NCBI RefSeq assembly: GCF_026011715.1
Contig: NZ_BRVM01000003.1
Span: forward strand, 127,297 to 191,296
From: Cytobacillus sp. NCCP-133
GTDB lineage: Bacteria > Bacillota > Bacilli > Bacillales > Cytobacillaceae
DNA: 64,000 nt
Direction of reading: 5' to 3'
A program made the translations under genes and the position numbers. How positions within the stretch are numbered: position 1 is the first letter of the stretch; every line of letters begins with the position of its first letter. A model generated the notes under the pieces. The model saw nothing but the letters and a program-made list of their open reading frames with translations. It did not search any database and was not told where the DNA came from. Shown here one piece after another: positions 13,540-58,451 of this stretch.

Positions 13540-13645
13540 TTTTTACCTACCGCCTCCCGCGAATTATCCCCCGTTTTGACGAATTATCTTTTCAGGGTTA
13601 AAAAAGTCCAAAGCACGGCCGTCTATTTTTTTGAAGCCAGCTATA

Positions 13646-16253: not shown

Positions 16254-17105
16254 TTATTCGTAAACGTAGAAGCCTCTTCCTGTCTTCTTGCCTAGCCAGC
16301 CTGCTTTTACATATTTCCTTAATAACGGGCATGGGCGGTACTTATCATCGCCAAAGCCTTCATGCAGCGTTTCCATTATATACAGGCAGGTATCAAGTCC
16401 AATGAAATCAGCCAATGTCAATGGGCCCATTGGGTGGTTCATGCCAAGCTTCATCACTTCATCAATGGCCTCTTTCGCTGCAACCCCTTCATAAAGTGTG
16501 TATACCGCTTCATTGATCATGGGCATCAAAATCCGGTTGGAAACAAAGCCGGGGAAGTCATTTACTTCGACAGGCACTTTTTTAAGCGTCTTTGTGATGT
16601 CTTCGATTGTTTGATATACTTCGTCTGTGGTTGCGAGTCCGCGGATAATTTCAACCAGCTTCATTACAGGCACTGGATTCATGAAGTGCATGCCAATAAC
16701 TTTTTCTGGTCGATTTGTCGTTGCTGCAATCTCTGTAATAGGAAGGGACGACGTATTGCTCGCTAATATTGCATGTTCAGGTGCAATTTCATCGAGCTGG
16801 CTGAAGATCTTTGTTTTAATCTCCATATTTTCAACAGCTGCTTCGATTACTAGGTCAATATTTTTGGCATCCTGCAGATTTGTTGAAGCGGTTACATTTC
16901 TGAGTACAGATTCCATCTCCTCCGCTGTTATGCGTTCTTTTTCCACCTGGCGGGAAAGATTCTTTTTAATCACACCTTGGCCACGTTCCACAAACTCAGG
17001 CTTTAGGTCATTTAAGATCACGCTGTATCCCGCCTGGGCACATACCTGTGCAATTCCTGAACCCATTTGTCCAGCACCGATTACCATAATGTTTTTTACG
17101 TTCAT
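16254..17105 (-). CDS. mmgB: 3-hydroxybutyryl-CoA dehydrogenase
   Basis: This NAD(P)-dependent enzyme oxidises 3-hydroxyacyl-CoA to 3-oxoacyl-CoA. The 283 residues have an N-terminal Rossmann fold (MVIGAGQMGSGIAQVCA) and a C-terminal helical dimer domain (GFVSNRILMPMINEA). The catalytic His is in IGMHFMNPVPVM. A GGAGG site precedes the ATG; a 22-codon upstream extension overlaps the repeat array and was rejected. It lies between the thiolase and acyl-CoA dehydrogenase genes, completing a beta-oxidation set. Confidence 0.95.
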   Translation of the reverse strand: MNVKNIMVIGAGQMGSGIAQVCAQAGYSVILNDLKPEFVERGQGVIKKNLSRQVEKERITAEEMESVLRNVTASTNLQDAKNIDLVIEAAVENMEIKTKIFSQLDEIAPEHAILASNTSSLPITEIAATTNRPEKVIGMHFMNPVPVMKLVEIIRGLATTDEVYQTIEDITKTLKKVPVEVNDFPGFVSNRILMPMINEAVYTLYEGVAAKEAIDEVMKLGMNHPMGPLTLADFIGLDTCLYIMETLHEGFGDDKYRPCPLLRKYVKAGWLGKKTGRGFYVYE

Positions 17106-17133
17106 TTTTGTACATCCTCCGTTCTTGAGCTTT

Positions 17134-17347
17134 GGCCGGTATTTCGATTGATTTAGCCGGTAAATCCTCATTTTGGGCCGGTATTTATTTAATATCGGCC
17201 GGTAAAAGCCGAAAATTGGCCGGTAAAAATGTTTCTATATAAGTCTGCTGATTGTTTAAGCTTCCGATTATTGGTTTGGCCGATAAAAGTTCGAGTTTGG
17301 CCGATAAATTGCTGCTTTCGGCCGTTAAATCTATAAAACTGGCCGAT
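17134..17347 (-). repeat. 21-bp-phased array, GGCCGGTAAA/GGCCGATAAA core
   Basis: The core GGCCGGT or GGCCGAT, usually followed by AAA or ATT, starts at 17134, 17155 (AGCCGGT), 17176, 17197, 17218, 17278, 17299, 17320 and 17341. Steps are exactly 21 bp within two blocks, which are separated by 60 bp. The roughly 11-bp spacers are not conserved. The array fills the gap between the thiolase and mmgB genes. Confidence 0.9.
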
Positions 17348-17421
17348 CAACTGTCGAGAGTGGCGTATTTTTTTGATATTTCCAGCAAAATGCTGCTGAT
17401 TTATGCCAATCCCCCTGCAAT

Positions 17422-18609
17422 TTATTGCTTCGGCACCTCAATCATCACGGCATCGCCCTGTCCGCCGCCGCTGCAGATGGCTGCAATGCCAATGCCGCCG
17501 CCACGGCGCTTTAATTCATGCATGAGTGTTAAAATAATTCTCGCTCCGCTGGCCCCGATTGGATGCCCAAGTGCGACTGCTCCACCGTTTACATTCACTT
17601 TTTCTTCATCCAGGCCTGCAATTTTCCCACTTGTTAAAGCAACAGCAGCGAATGCTTCGTTAATTTCAAATAGATCAACTTCTTCAAGCGTTCTTCCTGT
17701 CTTTTTCAAAAGTGCATTGATGACAAGCCCGGGTGTCTGCGGAAAGTCCTTCGCTTCCACCGCAAGCGCAGTATGGCCGAGAATATAAGCTTCCGGCTTC
17801 TTGCCTTCGCGTTCCGCGCGCTCTTCGCTCATCAATACCAGTGCTGCCGCTCCATCATTAACGCCCGGTGCATTTCCGGCAGTGATCGTTCCGTCTGAAT
17901 TAAATACAGAGCCAAGCTTAGCCAGCTTTTCTAAAGATGTATCTTTGCGAGGCGACTCATCCTGGGAAACAATGACTGGCTCCCCTTTTCGCTGCGGAAC
18001 TTCCACTGGCACGATTTCCTCTGCCAATTTGCCGGATTCAATTGCCGCCACCGCACGTTCATGGCTTCTTAGCGCCCATTTGTCCTGCTCTTCACGGCTG
18101 ATTTCAAATTCTTCTGCTGTTGAGTTTCCGTACGTTCCCATATGGACGCCTGTGAAGCTGCAGCTCAAACCATCATGAACCATTAAGTCCCTAACCGCTG
18201 AATCACCCATGCGCAAGCCCCAGCGTGCTTTCGGCAAAATGTAGGGCGCGTTGCTCATGGATTCCATGCCGCCAGCCACGATGACTTCCTCGTCACCTGC
18301 CCGGATGATCTGATCACCTAAAGTGATGCTTCGCATACCGGAAGCACAAACCTTATTGATCGTTTCCGTTTTGACTTCCCATGGCAATCCTGCCTTTTTC
18401 GCAGCCTGGCGTGAAGGGATTTGTCCCTGTCCGCCCTGTAGAACGGTTCCAAGAATCACTTCGTCTACAACTTCAGGATTGACGCCGGCACGGTTCAAAG
18501 CTTCCTTCACAGCAAATCCGCCTAGGTCAGACGCGGTAAAGCTGCTAAGCGTTCCTGCGAATTTTCCAAAAGGTGTTCTTACCCCGCTAAGAATTACGGT
18601 TTTCCCCAT
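17422..18609 (-). CDS. mmgA: Acetyl-CoA C-acyltransferase (thiolase)
   Basis: This thiolase performs the last step of beta-oxidation, cleaving 3-oxoacyl-CoA, or the reverse acetoacetyl-CoA condensation. The 395 residues show the nucleophilic Cys in [11 protein letters not shown] (about residue 89), the [10 protein letters not shown] His motif and the C-terminal acid/base Cys in [10 protein letters not shown]. An AAAGGAG ribosome site supports the start. It is upstream of mmgB on the same strand. The preceding region holds a cre-like site, so CcpA repression is plausible. Thiolases of biosynthetic and degradative type are hard to separate; context favours degradation. Confidence 0.94.
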
Positions 18610-22551: not shown

Positions 22552-22581
22552 GAGTATCCGGGGAAAAGTAGGTGCAGCAAA

Positions 22582-29014: not shown

Positions 29015-29127
29015 TTATTGGTCAGTTTTGCGTTTTATCGGTCACTTTGAACCTTTTACCGGTCAGTTTTGCATTTTATCGGTCACTTTTGCATTTTATC
29101 GGTCACTTTGAACCTTTTATCGGTCAC
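29015..29127 (+). repeat. Phased array with TTATCGGTCA core, six units
   Basis: GGTCA occurs at 29020, 29040, 29061, 29081, 29101 and 29122 (steps 20, 21, 20, 20, 21), nearly always inside TTATCGGTCA. Spacers alternate between TTTTGCATT-like and TTTGAACCT-like forms. It lies between the divergent speE and pbpG. The rest of the gap (28765-29014) is AT-rich without recognisable features. Confidence 0.9.
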
Positions 29128-29202
29128 TTGGCGTTGTATCAACTTTTCACTATATAAAAATGATAAAAGCCTTCGAAAACAGAAGAATTGGGGGTGCTTG
29201 AT

Positions 29203-37216: not shown

Positions 37217-37273
37217 TAGAAAAAACACTTCCGGAAGCGGGAGCAGGAGAAAATGGCAGCAATATCTTATTAG

Positions 37274-37306
37274 AAAAGCCGCAAACCACAAAGGTTTACG
37301 GCTTTT
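37274..37306. terminator. Bidirectional terminator between rsfA and lipL
   Basis: AAAAGCCG.AAACC / GGTTT.CGGCTTTT hairpin between the two convergent genes. Confidence 0.85.
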
Positions 37307-37311
37307 CTTCA

Positions 37312-38151: not shown

Positions 38152-38195
38152 CTTTTTGATCCCCTTTTGCCGATATCCCGAGTCAAACTGCGTTA

Positions 38196-38287
38196 ATCGG
38201 CTAAAATTATCTATTGCCAGGCCGGCCTTTTATCATTGACGGCCTATTTTTTTATTTTAACGGCCATTTCAGCCATATTAACGGCAT
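38196..38287 (+). repeat. 21-bp-phased array, TTAACGGCC core, five units
   Basis: Unit marks lie at 38198 (CGGCTA), 38219 (AGGCC), 38240 (CGGCCTA), 38261 (CGGCCAT) and 38282 (CGGCATA), all exactly 21 bp apart and mostly preceded by TTAA or TTGA. It lies between pta and lipL, oriented opposite to their transcription. Confidence 0.8.
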
Positions 38288-38351
38288 ATGGCTATAGCAA
38301 ATTTATTATAGCAAAAAAGCCAGTCACAAGGGACCGGCTTCTAGTTCACAA

Positions 38352-41601: not shown

Positions 41602-41812
41602 AAAGCGCAAGGCCCTTGCCCACGAAGGAAAGCAGACTAAGAACGCCAGGTCCTGTGGCAACGTCTGCATGACCCACATCCTGTGGGCCTCGAGCACAAG
41701 CCGGACCTCGTTGAAAGGCATTCTTTGCCTTTTTGGGAGGCTTTCCTGAAATGTGGAGGGACTGTCCAGGGACTCGAGGGGCAGGCTGCTGGCGCTAGAC
41801 CGTTATCTAAGT
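41602..41812 (+). repeat. Dispersed repeat, long copy (~210 bp)
   Basis: The fullest direct copy. It starts AAAGCGCAAGGCCCTTGCCCAC, has GAACGCCAGGTCCTGTGGCAACGTC, two CCTCGAG/ACTCGAG marks, and ends GCTAGACCGTTATCTAAGTT. Its internal GTCCTGTGGC..ACCCACATCCTGTGGGC can form stem-loops. The copy at 55769-55915 is its inverted partner. Confidence 0.7.
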
Positions 41813-46853: not shown

Positions 46854-47224
46854 ATTCTTCACCTGACTTTGTGTGATGTGGAACAGCGACATTCTATCCT
46901 GATCGTTTTATTTTACCATCTAATCCATTGTGTTTCTTTGATAAAGACTTGCCGGCTTCAACGGGTATGGCAGAATTGTGTCGAGACAAATTGTCCAAAC
47001 TGCCAGAGGTAGCACTCAAATTACCCCTTCATCCAAACAGTCAGGGGAATCGGGTATAAATTTGCCGTTTCCTGAAGAAACTTTACATATGCCTTTGCAG
47101 ATTGTCTGCAGAAAGCCGGCTCAGCCCTTTTTTGAGCCGGCTTTTCTGTTTTTCTGCTTAGAATAAAGCTTAATTGAGCGTGTTTCTCTCATTTTAGACT
47201 GTATTTTTCCGGCCAGAAATTTTT
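46854..47224. other. Gap between mobA and pdxK with orphan terminator
   Basis: No supported gene. A TGGCAG...CTGCCA inverted repeat surrounds a short palindrome (GACAAATTGTC) near 46982, and a strong terminator follows at 47110. This could be a leader or small RNA on the plus strand, but no convincing promoter was found. Confidence 0.35.
47110..47146 (+). terminator. Orphan terminator upstream of pdxK
   Basis: AAAGCCGGCTCA / TGAGCCGGCTTTT with TTTTCTGTTTTTC following on the plus strand. It lies 280 bp before pdxK, and no plus-strand gene ends here. Confidence 0.75.
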
Positions 47225-47315
47225 TTATGTGCGTTCACATGCATTTATGTGCGGATTGCCCTAATATGTGTGCCGATAACATTTTTTCTGAGGATAGCCA
47301 TTATTTATATGCGGA
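47225..47315 (+). repeat. Phased array, TTATGTGCGGAT core, five units
   Basis: Units start at 47225 (TTATGTGCG), 47245 (TTATGTGCGGAT), 47264 (ATATGTGTGCCGAT), 47285 (TTTCTGAGGAT) and 47305 (TTATATGCGGA), with steps 20, 19, 21, 20. It lies just upstream of pdxK. Confidence 0.75.
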
Positions 47316-52356: not shown

Positions 52357-53214
52357 CTACTTCAATACTTCCCAAATCGCCTTGCCTACACCGCTTTCTT
52401 CATTTGCGGACGTTACGGCATCACATTGTGCCTTGATGATTTCATCGGCATTTCCCATGGCGACTGATCTTCCAGCCCTTTTAAACATGGACAAATCATT
52501 ATAATTGTCGCCAATTGCCATTGTTTCTAGAAGTGATATTCCTTTTTCTTTTACAAAAGCCTCAAGAGCAATTCCCTTTTGGGCATTTATACTAGTCAGC
52601 TCCAGGTTCTCATCGCCTGATGAACTCACCGCCATGCCTTCGAGCTTTAGCAAGTCGTCTTTTGCGGCAGCAAGAAAGTCAGGTTCAAACGAGAAAGCCA
52701 GCAGCTTATAAATTTGGTGCTCTTCGCTGTTAAATAGCTCATCATAGCTGTTCACTTTATGGACCAGCCCTTTCTTAAAACGTTCTTCTGCGGCTTTTGT
52801 AACCTCATCAATATCTGCTTCAGGATTTCCGCTTAAAAAGATATCAACAATGATGGAGACGCCACGGTCTTCATCGACTGTATAGGTGCCCTGGTTTGTG
52901 TATACTTCAAAATAAACATTATTATCCACAAGGATTAAGGCGGCTTTTATAGCCAACTCCTTTTCGAGCGGATTCGAAGATACGACTTTGCCATCCTCAG
53001 CCCTTATCTCCGCACCATTCGCACATATGATAGGGCATGAAATGCCGGCTTCCTCCAGGACAAAACTTGCTTCAAAGTAGGAGCGTCCGGTTGCAATCAC
53101 AACTTCTACCCCTTTTTCCTGCGCTGCTTTGATCGCTTTAATATTCTCAGCCGTAATTTTCTGCGTCGCTGTTAAAAGTGTTCCATCCATATCGCTGGCA
53201 ATGCATCTAATCAT
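52357..53214 (-). CDS. Cof-type HAD-IIB hydrolase
   Basis: A cytosolic haloacid-dehalogenase-superfamily phosphatase of 285 residues. HAD motifs: DMDGTLL at about 8-14, VIATGR, and GDNYNDLSMF near residue 240; the large cap between them is type IIB. Cof-type enzymes dephosphorylate sugar phosphates, flavin or PLP; this one's substrate cannot be assigned. AAGGTGAGAG precedes the ATG. Confidence 0.9.
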   Translation of the reverse strand: MIRCIASDMDGTLLTATQKITAENIKAIKAAQEKGVEVVIATGRSYFEASFVLEEAGISCPIICANGAEIRAEDGKVVSSNPLEKELAIKAALILVDNNVYFEVYTNQGTYTVDEDRGVSIIVDIFLSGNPEADIDEVTKAAEERFKKGLVHKVNSYDELFNSEEHQIYKLLAFSFEPDFLAAAKDDLLKLEGMAVSSSGDENLELTSINAQKGIALEAFVKEKGISLLETMAIGDNYNDLSMFKRAGRSVAMGNADEIIKAQCDAVTSANEESGVGKAIWEVLK

Positions 53215-53283
53215 GTTCTCTCACCTTCCGGCCCAGTATTTTTTCTGAATAATTTATTTTGCCATTTTAACATGTTCTTTGTG

Positions 53284-53947
53284 TTAATTTAAATATTTGC
53301 TCCCTTCCCTGATGCTTAATTTGGCGAGCGGATTAGAATTAATGAACTCCTTAACCGAATCAGGGTTCGTTTTTGGAATATTCTCTGAGAGCCCAGCCAA
53401 TGGCTTTTTGAATGAAAAACTCTTTGCTTTCGTTATTTTCGAGAATGTATCGGTACAGTAAGTCTTCATCTGTTCGATCCTTATACTTTAACTGAAACAA
53501 GATTGAGGTCCGGCGGAGCCACATATCGTCACTCGTAACCCATTCATCGATTTTTTCTCCGATTATCTCTGGATGTTTTGCAGCAATCGCACCCACAGCA
53601 TGGGAAGCAAGCATATCAACTGTATCCCACCATGACTTTGTAACGATCAGCTTCTTCACTAAAGGCAAATGCCCCTTGTCCAATTTCTTAACGAACTTTC
53701 CAATATAATCGAGGGCCGCATTTTGATATTCCCGCTCGTCCTTTTCCCATAATACTTCAACAAACTCTGAATTAAATTCATACTTTAACAGACCTGACCG
53801 ATTAAACAATTCTTTTCATAAACTTCTCCTCTCAGGTGTCTTAATTCCAAGAAATTGGAACTTATTTTTCATGTAGTTTTGCATGGGAATAGCATTCTCT
53901 TCACTTCGATTTTCCTCAAAAAGCTTTATTAATAAACAAATATCCAT
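53284..53947 (-). pseudogene. DNA alkylation repair protein (AlkD family), broken
   Basis: HEAT-repeat DNA glycosylases of this family (about 220-235 residues) excise alkylated bases. A strong AAAGGAG site precedes ATG 53947. The frame then reads through MKNKFQFLGIKTPERRSL to an in-frame TGA at 53816-53818 (codon 44) where a Leu is expected. It resumes with KELFNRSGLLKYEF, then SWWDTVDMLASHAVG to WALREYSK. There a run of five A (53370-53374) appears to have one base too many. The remaining TNPDSVKEFINSNPL tail is in another frame and stops at 53284. One nonsense and one frameshift indicate a pseudogene; a 149-residue fragment could still be made. Confidence 0.85.
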
Positions 53948-55566: not shown

Positions 55567-55576
55567 AGGTGCATGA

Positions 55577-55600
55577 GGATGGCGCAATGCCATCCTTTTT
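55577..55600 (+). terminator. Terminator after the SCFA transporter
   Basis: GGATGGC-GCAAT-GCCATCC then TTTTT, 10 nt past the stop. A second hairpin (AGCATGA...TCATGCT, about 55707-55738) follows. Confidence 0.88.
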
Positions 55601-55768
55601 AATGGATCAGTTAATTGATATTTTTATTTTTTCCTTGGTATACAGTCCTTTTTGATTCGGAAATCCCGTTGATGAAATCAGAGGCAGACCGGAAACATGA
55701 AAAAAAGAGCATGACAGCCATTGATGGCCATCATGCTTCTTTATTATGAGTTCATATAATCATTCTGA

Positions 55769-55915
55769 AGTTAGATAACTGTCTAGTGCAAGCTGCCTGC
55801 CGCCTCGAGGTCAAAAGCTTGTCTTGTTGCGGTTCCTAGGGACGAAAGACGTCGCCACAGGACGTGGCGCTTTTAATCTGCGTTCCTTTTGTGAGCAAGG
55901 CGCTTCCGCTTTCCT
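55769..55915 (-). repeat. Dispersed repeat, inverted long copy (~147 bp)
   Basis: On the minus strand it reads GGAAGCGCCTTGCTCAC, AACGCAGATTAAAAGCGCCAC, GTCCTGTGGCGACGTC, GACCTCGAGGCGGCAGGC and finally CTAGACAGTTATCTAACTT. That order matches 41602-41812. Its outer end abuts the stop codon of the small gene at 55914. Confidence 0.7.
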
Positions 55916-57792: not shown

Positions 57793-57839
57793 GACCGATA
57801 TATTGAACATCTGACCGATAAACATGTGTTACTGACCGA
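57793..57839 (-). repeat. Short phased array, TGACCGATA core, three units
   Basis: GACCGAT at 57793, 57813 and 57834 (steps 20 and 21). It lies between convergent yjiH and the Gly/Pro-rich gene, in the reverse orientation to the TTATCGGTCA array at 29 kb. Confidence 0.7.
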
Positions 57840-57921
57840 TATATTAAAAATATGGAAAATACCATACTGCAGCATCTACTAAATCGTTGCAATTTTGATA
57901 AAAACAGCGCTGTCCCCATGT

Positions 57922-57968: not shown

Positions 57969-58451
57969 TTAAAAACATTGGAAAGAACGAATTCTTCTTA
58001 AGTCAGTTCCATAATAAGTCCAGCGCCAATTTCTCCAGCGCCAGCCTGCTACAGATGTCCTGCCGACAAAGGTCGGGTAGAACCAGAAGCTGTTTCCGTT
58101 TTCCAGCCATACAAACGTGTAGCGGAACAAACAGCCCCGGATGGCACCAGGATCAACCGCAAATGCTGTGGCTTGCTGCATTTGCGGAGTAAAGCTTGGA
58201 GGAGGACTTGATGGCGGTCCACCTTGCTGCTGTCCTCCGCCGCCTGGCGGTCCCGGTGGCGGCCCTGGAGGTCCAAATCCCCCACCCGGCCCTCCTGGTG
58301 GCGGTCCCGGTGGTCCGAATCCGCCGCCTGGCCCTCCCGGAGGAAATCCCGGAATGCCAAATCCGCCGCCTGATCCTCCTCCTGGAAAGATCCGATCGTC
58401 ATAATAATAGTCTGCCATATAAGGGTAAAACGGATAGTTTGGATAATCCAT
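57969..58451 (-). CDS. Gly/Pro-rich putative spore surface protein
   Basis: The 160 residues comprise a Tyr/Pro-rich start (MDYPNYPFYPYMADYYYDDR), a collagen-like but irregular Gly-Pro tract (about 24-78, GGFGPPGPPPGGP repeated), a Gln/Pro/Ser linker and a C-terminal aromatic domain (about 104-160) with RYTFVWLENGNSFWFYPTF, VAGWRWRNWRWTYYG and a Cys at each end. No signal peptide. A sigma-K-type promoter lies 34 bp upstream, so a late mother-cell coat or exosporium component is likely. AAAGGAG precedes the ATG. I cannot name an orthologue. Confidence 0.75.
   Translation of the reverse strand: MDYPNYPFYPYMADYYYDDRIFPGGGSGGGFGIPGFPPGGPGGGFGPPGPPPGGPGGGFGPPGPPPGPPGGGGQQQGGPPSSPPPSFTPQMQQATAFAVDPGAIRGCLFRYTFVWLENGNSFWFYPTFVGRTSVAGWRWRNWRWTYYGTDLRRIRSFQCF

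Follow-up and report, generated by a model that had tools for sequence, protein, structure and literature searches.

The gap between the thiolase gene and mmgB in Cytobacillus sp. NCCP-133 contains an array of short, similar motifs at a step of two helical turns, and arrays of this kind form a dispersed intergenic class with many loci in this genome and its congeners. We think it probable (roughly 60%) that a putative sequence-reading, DNA-bending protein binds the array as a row of DNA sites and that selection has kept the array. We favor this reading because the arrays have constrained cores within neutral spacers, helical phasing, apparent constraint on the letters of the core, mixed orientation, and an intergenic position.

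The array between thiolase and mmgB

We call the whole 64,000-nucleotide stretch that was analyzed the window, and positions are given within it. The array (17134-17350) lies entirely in the gap between the thiolase gene and the mmgB-type gene, which are co-directional. Each unit consists of a core of about 10 bp and a spacer of 10-11 bp. The genes, the two blocks of the array, and the other arrays in the window are as follows.

16254-17105, - strand: 3-hydroxybutyryl-CoA dehydrogenase gene (mmgB-type, NF004474), downstream of the array
17134-17227, + strand: block 1, five units of [GA]GCCGGTA[AT][AT] starting at 17134, 17155, 17176, 17197, and 17218, in exact 21-bp steps
17228-17277, no strand: break between the blocks (60 bp core to core)
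17278-17350, + strand: block 2, four units of GGCCG[AT]T[AC]AA starting at 17278, 17299, 17320, and 17341, in exact 21-bp steps
17422-18609, - strand: acetyl-CoA C-acetyltransferase gene (thiolase, NF006086), upstream of the array on the transcribed strand
29015-29129, - strand: second array, core TGACCGATAAA, steps of 20 or 21 bp, including a 41-bp dimer repeat
38190-38290, - strand: decayed array; the orthologous gap of genomes G005, G012, and G009 also has arrays
47224-47315, - strand: weak array with a different core (CGCACATAAA on the - strand)
57793-57843, + strand: third array, core TGACCGATA, steps of 20 and 21 bp, in a convergent gap

All nine core starts, the step of exactly 21 bp inside both blocks, and the 60 bp between blocks had been described in an earlier note on this DNA, and all were confirmed. 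The letters of three units needed correction: the unit at 17155 reads AGCCGGT, the unit at 17320 reads GGCCGTT, and the unit at 17341 reads GGCCGATCAA. By eye, one end of the array is near an apparent Shine-Dalgarno sequence of the mmgB-type gene.

We searched the non-coding DNA of the window for three-unit matches. If at least 8 of 10 columns had to be identical, then there were 4 places at steps of 20-21 bp and 0 places at each of the control steps (15-16, 17-18, 23-24, and 26-27 bp). At 7 of 10 columns, there were 6 places at steps of 20-21 bp (blocks at 17130, 17273, 29014, 38234, 47223, and 57789), versus 0, 0, 1, and 0 at the control steps. Because the matches concentrate at steps of 20-21 bp, with almost none at the control steps, the thiolase-mmgB array is beyond chance. 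The earlier note had counted seven arrays of one architecture in the window. Our scans gave four blocks in three gaps (8 of 10) or six blocks in five gaps (7 of 10), which falls short of seven; the arrays do share steps of 20-21 bp, but not all of them keep to exactly 21.

The mmgA-mmgB gap could be extracted from 22 congeners. An array of the thiolase-mmgB family is present in 10 of them, several with recognizably orthologous units, and in the remaining 12 the gap is short or has other inserts. (By eye, block 2 looks degenerate in G002.) Among four genomes from other genera, none has an array in this gap. The earlier note had named absence from close relatives as a sign against its reading; arrays are found in relatives, but not in all of them. 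Also, the gap of G021 (L049) includes 645 bp in which an array is built on another core (TTTGTTTGCGA), and that of G006 (L041) has, by eye, a repeat of longer period, as though arrays settle easily at this place.

The window contains several other elements. Two Bacillaceae-1 RNAs (RF01690; gathering score 35) are at 41621-41687 (+ strand, score 71.1) and 55835-55892 (- strand, score 36.9). A G+C-rich tandem repeat of 42 bp (58236-58379) is within a predicted gene (57969-58451, - strand). By eye, there are two more families of dispersed intergenic repeats, of up to about 400 bp, which are inserted into otherwise short gaps and whose presence or absence varies by species; their sites are the orthologous gaps at 13540-13645, 22552-22581, 37217-37311, 53191-53359, and 55567-55913. 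One of these families starts with GAAAAGCGGAAGCGCC and ends near CTAGACA.

A dispersed intergenic class in the Bacillales

The strongest control for the class is a scan by step that assumes no motif. In 2.364 Mb from the genus, 49 non-coding loci have three or more occurrences of one 7-mer at steps of 19-22 bp, where orthologous stretches of several species were counted separately and so the loci are not independent. Elsewhere there were 0 loci at steps of 11-14, 15-18, 23-26, and 27-30 bp and 1 at 31-34 bp; the doubled step of 40-43 bp gave 33 loci. Our array model, unlike the motif-free scan, was seeded on CCG[AGT]TAA, so its counts for that family are ascertained. A profile scan found 28 arrays of at least three units in 764 kb of the source genome plus five 80-kb stretches of congeners, versus 3 in the reversed sequence, and 27 of the 28 are in gaps, with the remaining one overlapping a called gene at its start. 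In 1.36 Mb of the congeners G005 and G012, the scan found 31 arrays versus 3 in the reversed sequence, and all 31 are in gaps. The stretches at 1.0-1.2 Mb of G005 and 0.88-1.08 Mb of G012 had been picked because of earlier matches there, and five stretches of the source genome that had been picked around earlier matches (C6, C20, C21) were excluded from every count. Genes were called by our own codon-usage method. The earlier note had named equal periodicity in shuffled controls as a sign against its reading; in our controls, other steps and reversed sequence, the counts are far lower.

A strict pattern of three CCGATAAA cores matches 14 of 61 genomes, all from the source's own genus (1 of 26 genera), and its reverse has no match in the 61 genomes. 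For a cross-genus set, we selected at least 109 loci by the CCGATAAA pattern and sorted the 80 that had names into Bacillales or other. The genera among the matches listed include Bacillus, Neobacillus, Cytobacillus, Lysinibacillus, Oceanobacillus, Rossellomorea, Robertmurraya, and Sporolactobacillus, among others. Among the 80 named loci listed, 54 are from Bacillales; using the first match of each, none of these is coding, and 4 have spacers that are at least 80% alike. Of the 26 others, 10 are coding and 19 have spacers with a likeness of 80% or more; most of them are ordinary repeats.

Besides CCGATAA and CCGGTAA, cores at the same step include GCGGATA, GTGCACATA, TCGTTGATA, GCAAATA, GCAAACA, and GCGCGTAAA. 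Judging only by eye, many cores seem to consist of a loose G/C block with ATAAA after it. Whether 20 or 21 bp prevails depends on the core family: GACCG arrays have 28 steps of 20 and 8 of 21, and the GGCCG families together have 5 of 20 and 52 of 21 (p = 8e-12, with steps within one array and in orthologues not being independent). Terminators are found in 14 of 23 array gaps versus 99 of 237 others (p = 0.08; about half of the others were sampled), which we do not take as an association.

In four congeners, arrays are more common near the origin of replication. With dnaA as the marker of the origin, the origin-near half of the chromosome contains 12 of 12 array loci in G001, 17 of 22 in G009, 23 of 27 in G005, and, among the matches listed, 11 of 13 in G012. 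These loci are array-like matches that were kept by eye, with near ones merged and 12 dropped. If the 12 are restored, then the bias persists: the near half contains 13 of 16 (Kolmogorov-Smirnov p = 0.0078), 19 of 24 (p = 0.0006), and 23 of 30 (p = 0.0003) in G001, G009, and G005, respectively, and, among the matches listed, 12 of 16 (p = 0.039) in G012, for which 9 of the 17 matches to the pattern were listed. A reversed pattern gave 3, 3, 1, and 3 matches, versus 17, 47, 77, and 17 for the pattern itself (G001, G009, G005, and G012); with 3 versus 17, chance matches matter for G001 and G012. Also, the four genomes share ancestry and are not four independent tests. The bias may be due to function or to better survival in conserved backbone. 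In a separate observation, a second, divergent RemA-like gene is within a few kb of dnaA in G005 (C1:251320), G012 (C1:4655), and G001 (C1:4598).

Several familiar kinds of element do not account for the arrays. Coding origin is rejected: no Bacillales locus of the 54 is coding (by its first match), and mixed steps of 20 and 21 bp would break any reading frame. There is no DnaA box (TTATNCACA) in 5,709 bp of arrays, which rules out DnaA titration sites or a DnaA-box cluster. CRISPR arrays have identical repeats of over 20 bp and unique spacers of about 30 bp; a core of about 10 bp with a spacer of 10-11 bp is too short for that geometry. As for mobile elements, no stretch similar to the thiolase-mmgB array was found in the plasmid collection or in phages, and four viral contigs carry the array pattern. 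A signal oriented by replication is rejected as well, as the ratio of leading to lagging strand is about 13:7 in G005 and 9:8 in G009, with no clear bias by eye. Plasmid iterons are also direct repeats about two helical turns apart, where the replication initiator binds along one face, but iterons occur only at replication origins. The arrays, by contrast, are scattered over chromosomes, and the one studied here is flanked by thiolase and mmgB rather than by a rep gene or an origin.

Divergence and composition of the units

To compare cores with spacers, we used the units shared by G005 and G012, which are about 93-94% identical. Cores differ at 25 of 351 positions (7.1%) or 15 of 279 (5.4%), and spacers differ at 50 of 351 (14.2%) or 41 of 279 (14.7%), depending on which of the two genomes is used to call the units (Fisher p = 0.003 and 0.0004). 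By comparison, four-fold degenerate sites differ at 15.8% (51,122 sites in 414 genes), and the rest of the non-coding DNA in array gaps differs at 7.0% (184 of 2,619). Because the spacer rate is close to the four-fold rate and the other gap DNA changes more slowly, spacers change like unconstrained sites. Thus, from these alignments, the spacers look neutral and the cores look constrained, if only partially. The earlier note had proposed short phased sites, and not a long repeat unit, as the target of selection, and it had named spacers as conserved as the cores as a sign to the contrary; in this pair, the spacers are the less conserved part, and the divergence supports the proposal. Not every locus conforms. 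Among the 14 loci with shared units, 4 lack the core advantage: two are reversed (in G005b, at 66633, core 9/27 and spacer 6/27; at 102937, core 1/9 and spacer 0/9) and two are equal (G005b 80780, 0/18 and 0/18; G005c 20790, 3/18 and 3/18).

The constraint appears to be on the letters and not on G+C class alone, albeit from small numbers of changes. Changes between A/T and G/C make up 18 of 25 changes in cores, 38 of 50 in spacers, and 5,997 of 8,076 at four-fold sites, and changes that keep the class are also fewer in cores (7 versus 12, at equal numbers of sites). Core letters in G005 are more alike within an array (5.84 of 7) than between arrays (5.37).

Beyond the core, the unit has A/T-rich shoulders and, one turn away, a G+C hump (46.5% versus 39.6% in the background), which falls in the freely varying spacer. 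The result is a wave of A/T content at 10.25-10.5 bp, and this wave exceeds the component at 20.5 bp. At 10.5 bp, the wave averages 0.146 over 47 arrays, versus 0.053 over 3,000 other windows of non-coding DNA, and the arrays are on average at the 96th percentile. Fifteen loci with other cores average 0.108, or about twice the control mean, and 14 of the 15 are above that mean. Predicted curvature, from wedge parameters, is also higher in arrays than in length-matched non-coding windows.

What may read the arrays

The main rival to protein binding is that the arrays are a neutral or selfish minisatellite without function, created by tandem duplication at a length of two turns and by slippage. 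This is unlikely in our view, but turnover argues for it. Between G005 and G012, arrays gain or lose whole units: of the indels of at least 15 bp, 11 of 16 in array zones are near multiples of 20.5 bp, versus 15 of 76 in other gaps (of up to 900 bp and differing in length by at least 6 bp). Length changed by at least 18 bp in 12 of 16 orthologous array gaps; among other gaps, 25% of 293 changed this much, as did 32% of the 171 that were matched for size. (An array was called only in G005 for 5 of the 16 gaps and only in G012 for 1.) Clear dimer duplications of 41-42 bp are present at 29015-29129 of the window and at G001 25324, and neighboring spacers of the source genome are somewhat alike (3.58 of 9 at lag 1, n = 19, and 4.20 at lag 2, n = 10, versus 3.20 between arrays). 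The variable presence among congeners and the four loci without a core advantage fit a minisatellite too. Against it, the pooled core rate is about 0.4-0.5 of the spacer rate, and the spacers match synonymous sites. Adjacent spacers in G005 resemble each other no more than spacers from different arrays do (2.88 versus 3.02 of 9; 3.47 at lag 2), and none of 65 adjacent pairs agrees at 7 or more of 9, so recent tandem copying is rare there. The whole unit with its spacer is not common to neighboring copies in G005, and the likeness in the source genome is weak. Neutral slippage would also leave the absence of other periods unexplained. Slippage, suggested in the earlier note, can account for the turnover (whole-unit indels and some dimer duplications), but it leaves unexplained why cores are conserved next to neighboring spacers that are unrelated.

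The A/T wave, the higher predicted curvature, the G+C hump in the spacer, and the single geometry shared by many cores would also suit an intrinsic DNA-shape element, in which the phasing of A/T and G/C blocks is enough to bend the DNA and the core has no specific protein as its reader. We consider this improbable, as class-keeping changes are fewer in cores (in small numbers) and core letters are more alike within arrays. An element that acts at the level of RNA, such as repeated protein sites in intercistronic mRNA, seems very improbable. The mmgA-mmgB array does lie between co-directional genes and beside the apparent Shine-Dalgarno sequence, and, in co-directional gaps across genera, arrays on the same strand as the genes predominate by 33:10 among the matches listed (from the set of at least 109 loci, with non-Bacillales and several arrays per locus included). 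In the cross-genus set, this would leave room for a role at the level of RNA or one linked to transcription. In the genus itself, both orientations are found in co-directional gaps (13 same versus 10 opposite, where an orthologue present in G005 and G012 counts once for each). On the transcribed strand, the fold z-score of the thiolase-mmgB array is -1.3, with 21 of 200 shuffles as stable; on the other strand it is -2.0 (10 of 200), and no Rfam family matches this array at the gathering threshold. The structured RNA within an operon that the earlier note had listed is not supported by the folds or by the orientations but keeps a small probability. With low probability, RemA or another LytTR-type protein targets the arrays; about four units of 21 bp could be wrapped around one RemA ring. 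The literature reports an operator step of 21 bp for LytTR sites (PMC6193735) and, for RemA, a ring with a LytTR-related domain, proposed wrapping of DNA, and poorly conserved repeats (PMC8481266). Of 61 genomes, 58 have RemA-like genes and 58 have LytTR genes, but so do genomes in which the array pattern was not found, and gene presence therefore does not discriminate. The letters do not favor LytTR: across 11 core families, 26 to 215 of 300 column-permuted cores score as well as the real one (98, 79, and 113 of 300 for the three main families). The account of RemA gives protections of 7 bp with 3-bp gaps in AT-rich DNA (PMC8481266). We take LytTR and RemA as a lead, suggested by geometry only.

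Other comparisons with known systems are also partial. As described in PMC6193735, sites in LytTR operons are 9-bp direct repeats that are mostly 12 bp apart, with minorities at 11 or 13, and AgrA likewise binds two direct repeats (PMC4227749). Operators of the HdrR/BrsR type and of AgrA, with direct repeats of about 9 bp and spacers of 11-13 bp, therefore resemble the arrays, whose step is mostly 20-21 bp. As these accounts present them, they differ in being one pair near one promoter, whereas the arrays have 3 to about 20 units and are dispersed, and array letters fit the LytTR site profile no better than chance. RemA targets such as epsA of B. subtilis are repetitive as well, and PMC8481266 has them read with a periodicity of about one turn; they are AT-rich and weakly conserved, in contrast to strong G+C-rich cores every two turns. 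BldC of Streptomyces binds head-to-tail and cooperatively to variable numbers of direct repeats and distorts the DNA, but PMC5859096 describes successive 9-bp repeats at regulated promoters in another phylum, and we saw no 20-21 bp step reported. The TAACTGA repeats of Beggiatoaceae are similar to the arrays in forming many dispersed intergenic sets of direct repeats, whose function was not known there; they are 7-mers mostly beside start codons (PMC4679880), and we saw no helical phasing described.

Returning to binding by a protein, same-face binding was among the options in the earlier note and is the best fit to the sequences, with the binding itself inferred. A putative protein would dock on one face of the helix, at one site for every two turns, perhaps head-to-tail or with the DNA wrapped, and it probably bends the DNA; purifying selection for this binding would be the cause of core conservation. 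Because core families differ and geometry is constant, it would take one reader of degenerate specificity or several related readers. Two observations fit less well: the breaks of 40 and 60 bp are off exact multiples of 10.5 bp, and a single specific protein would not easily explain several quite different cores at one step. The role may be to organize the chromosome or to insulate locally, as suggested by arrays crowding near the origin and by their mixed orientation in the genus.

More tentatively, and with considerable doubt, the arrays may be an undescribed chromosomal element of Bacillales that is dispersed and biased towards the origin. Its defining trait would be the two-turn step with the one-turn A/T wave, each array having its own core under selection, and its reader would be a nucleoid protein that wraps DNA and recognizes phased direct repetition. 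If so, bacteria would have a counterpart to positioned, wrapped DNA. Repeats without a known use in bacteria are usually palindromes or plain tandem copies. Dispersed repeats in bacteria are already known; what may be new is an intergenic class with a two-turn step and array-specific cores, of which we found no description in the open-access literature. The spacers serve as a built-in neutral control, which indicates constraint on short phased cores, and the origin bias is a second hint of chromosome organization. A hidden DNA-binding system in a large group of bacteria thereby becomes directly testable.
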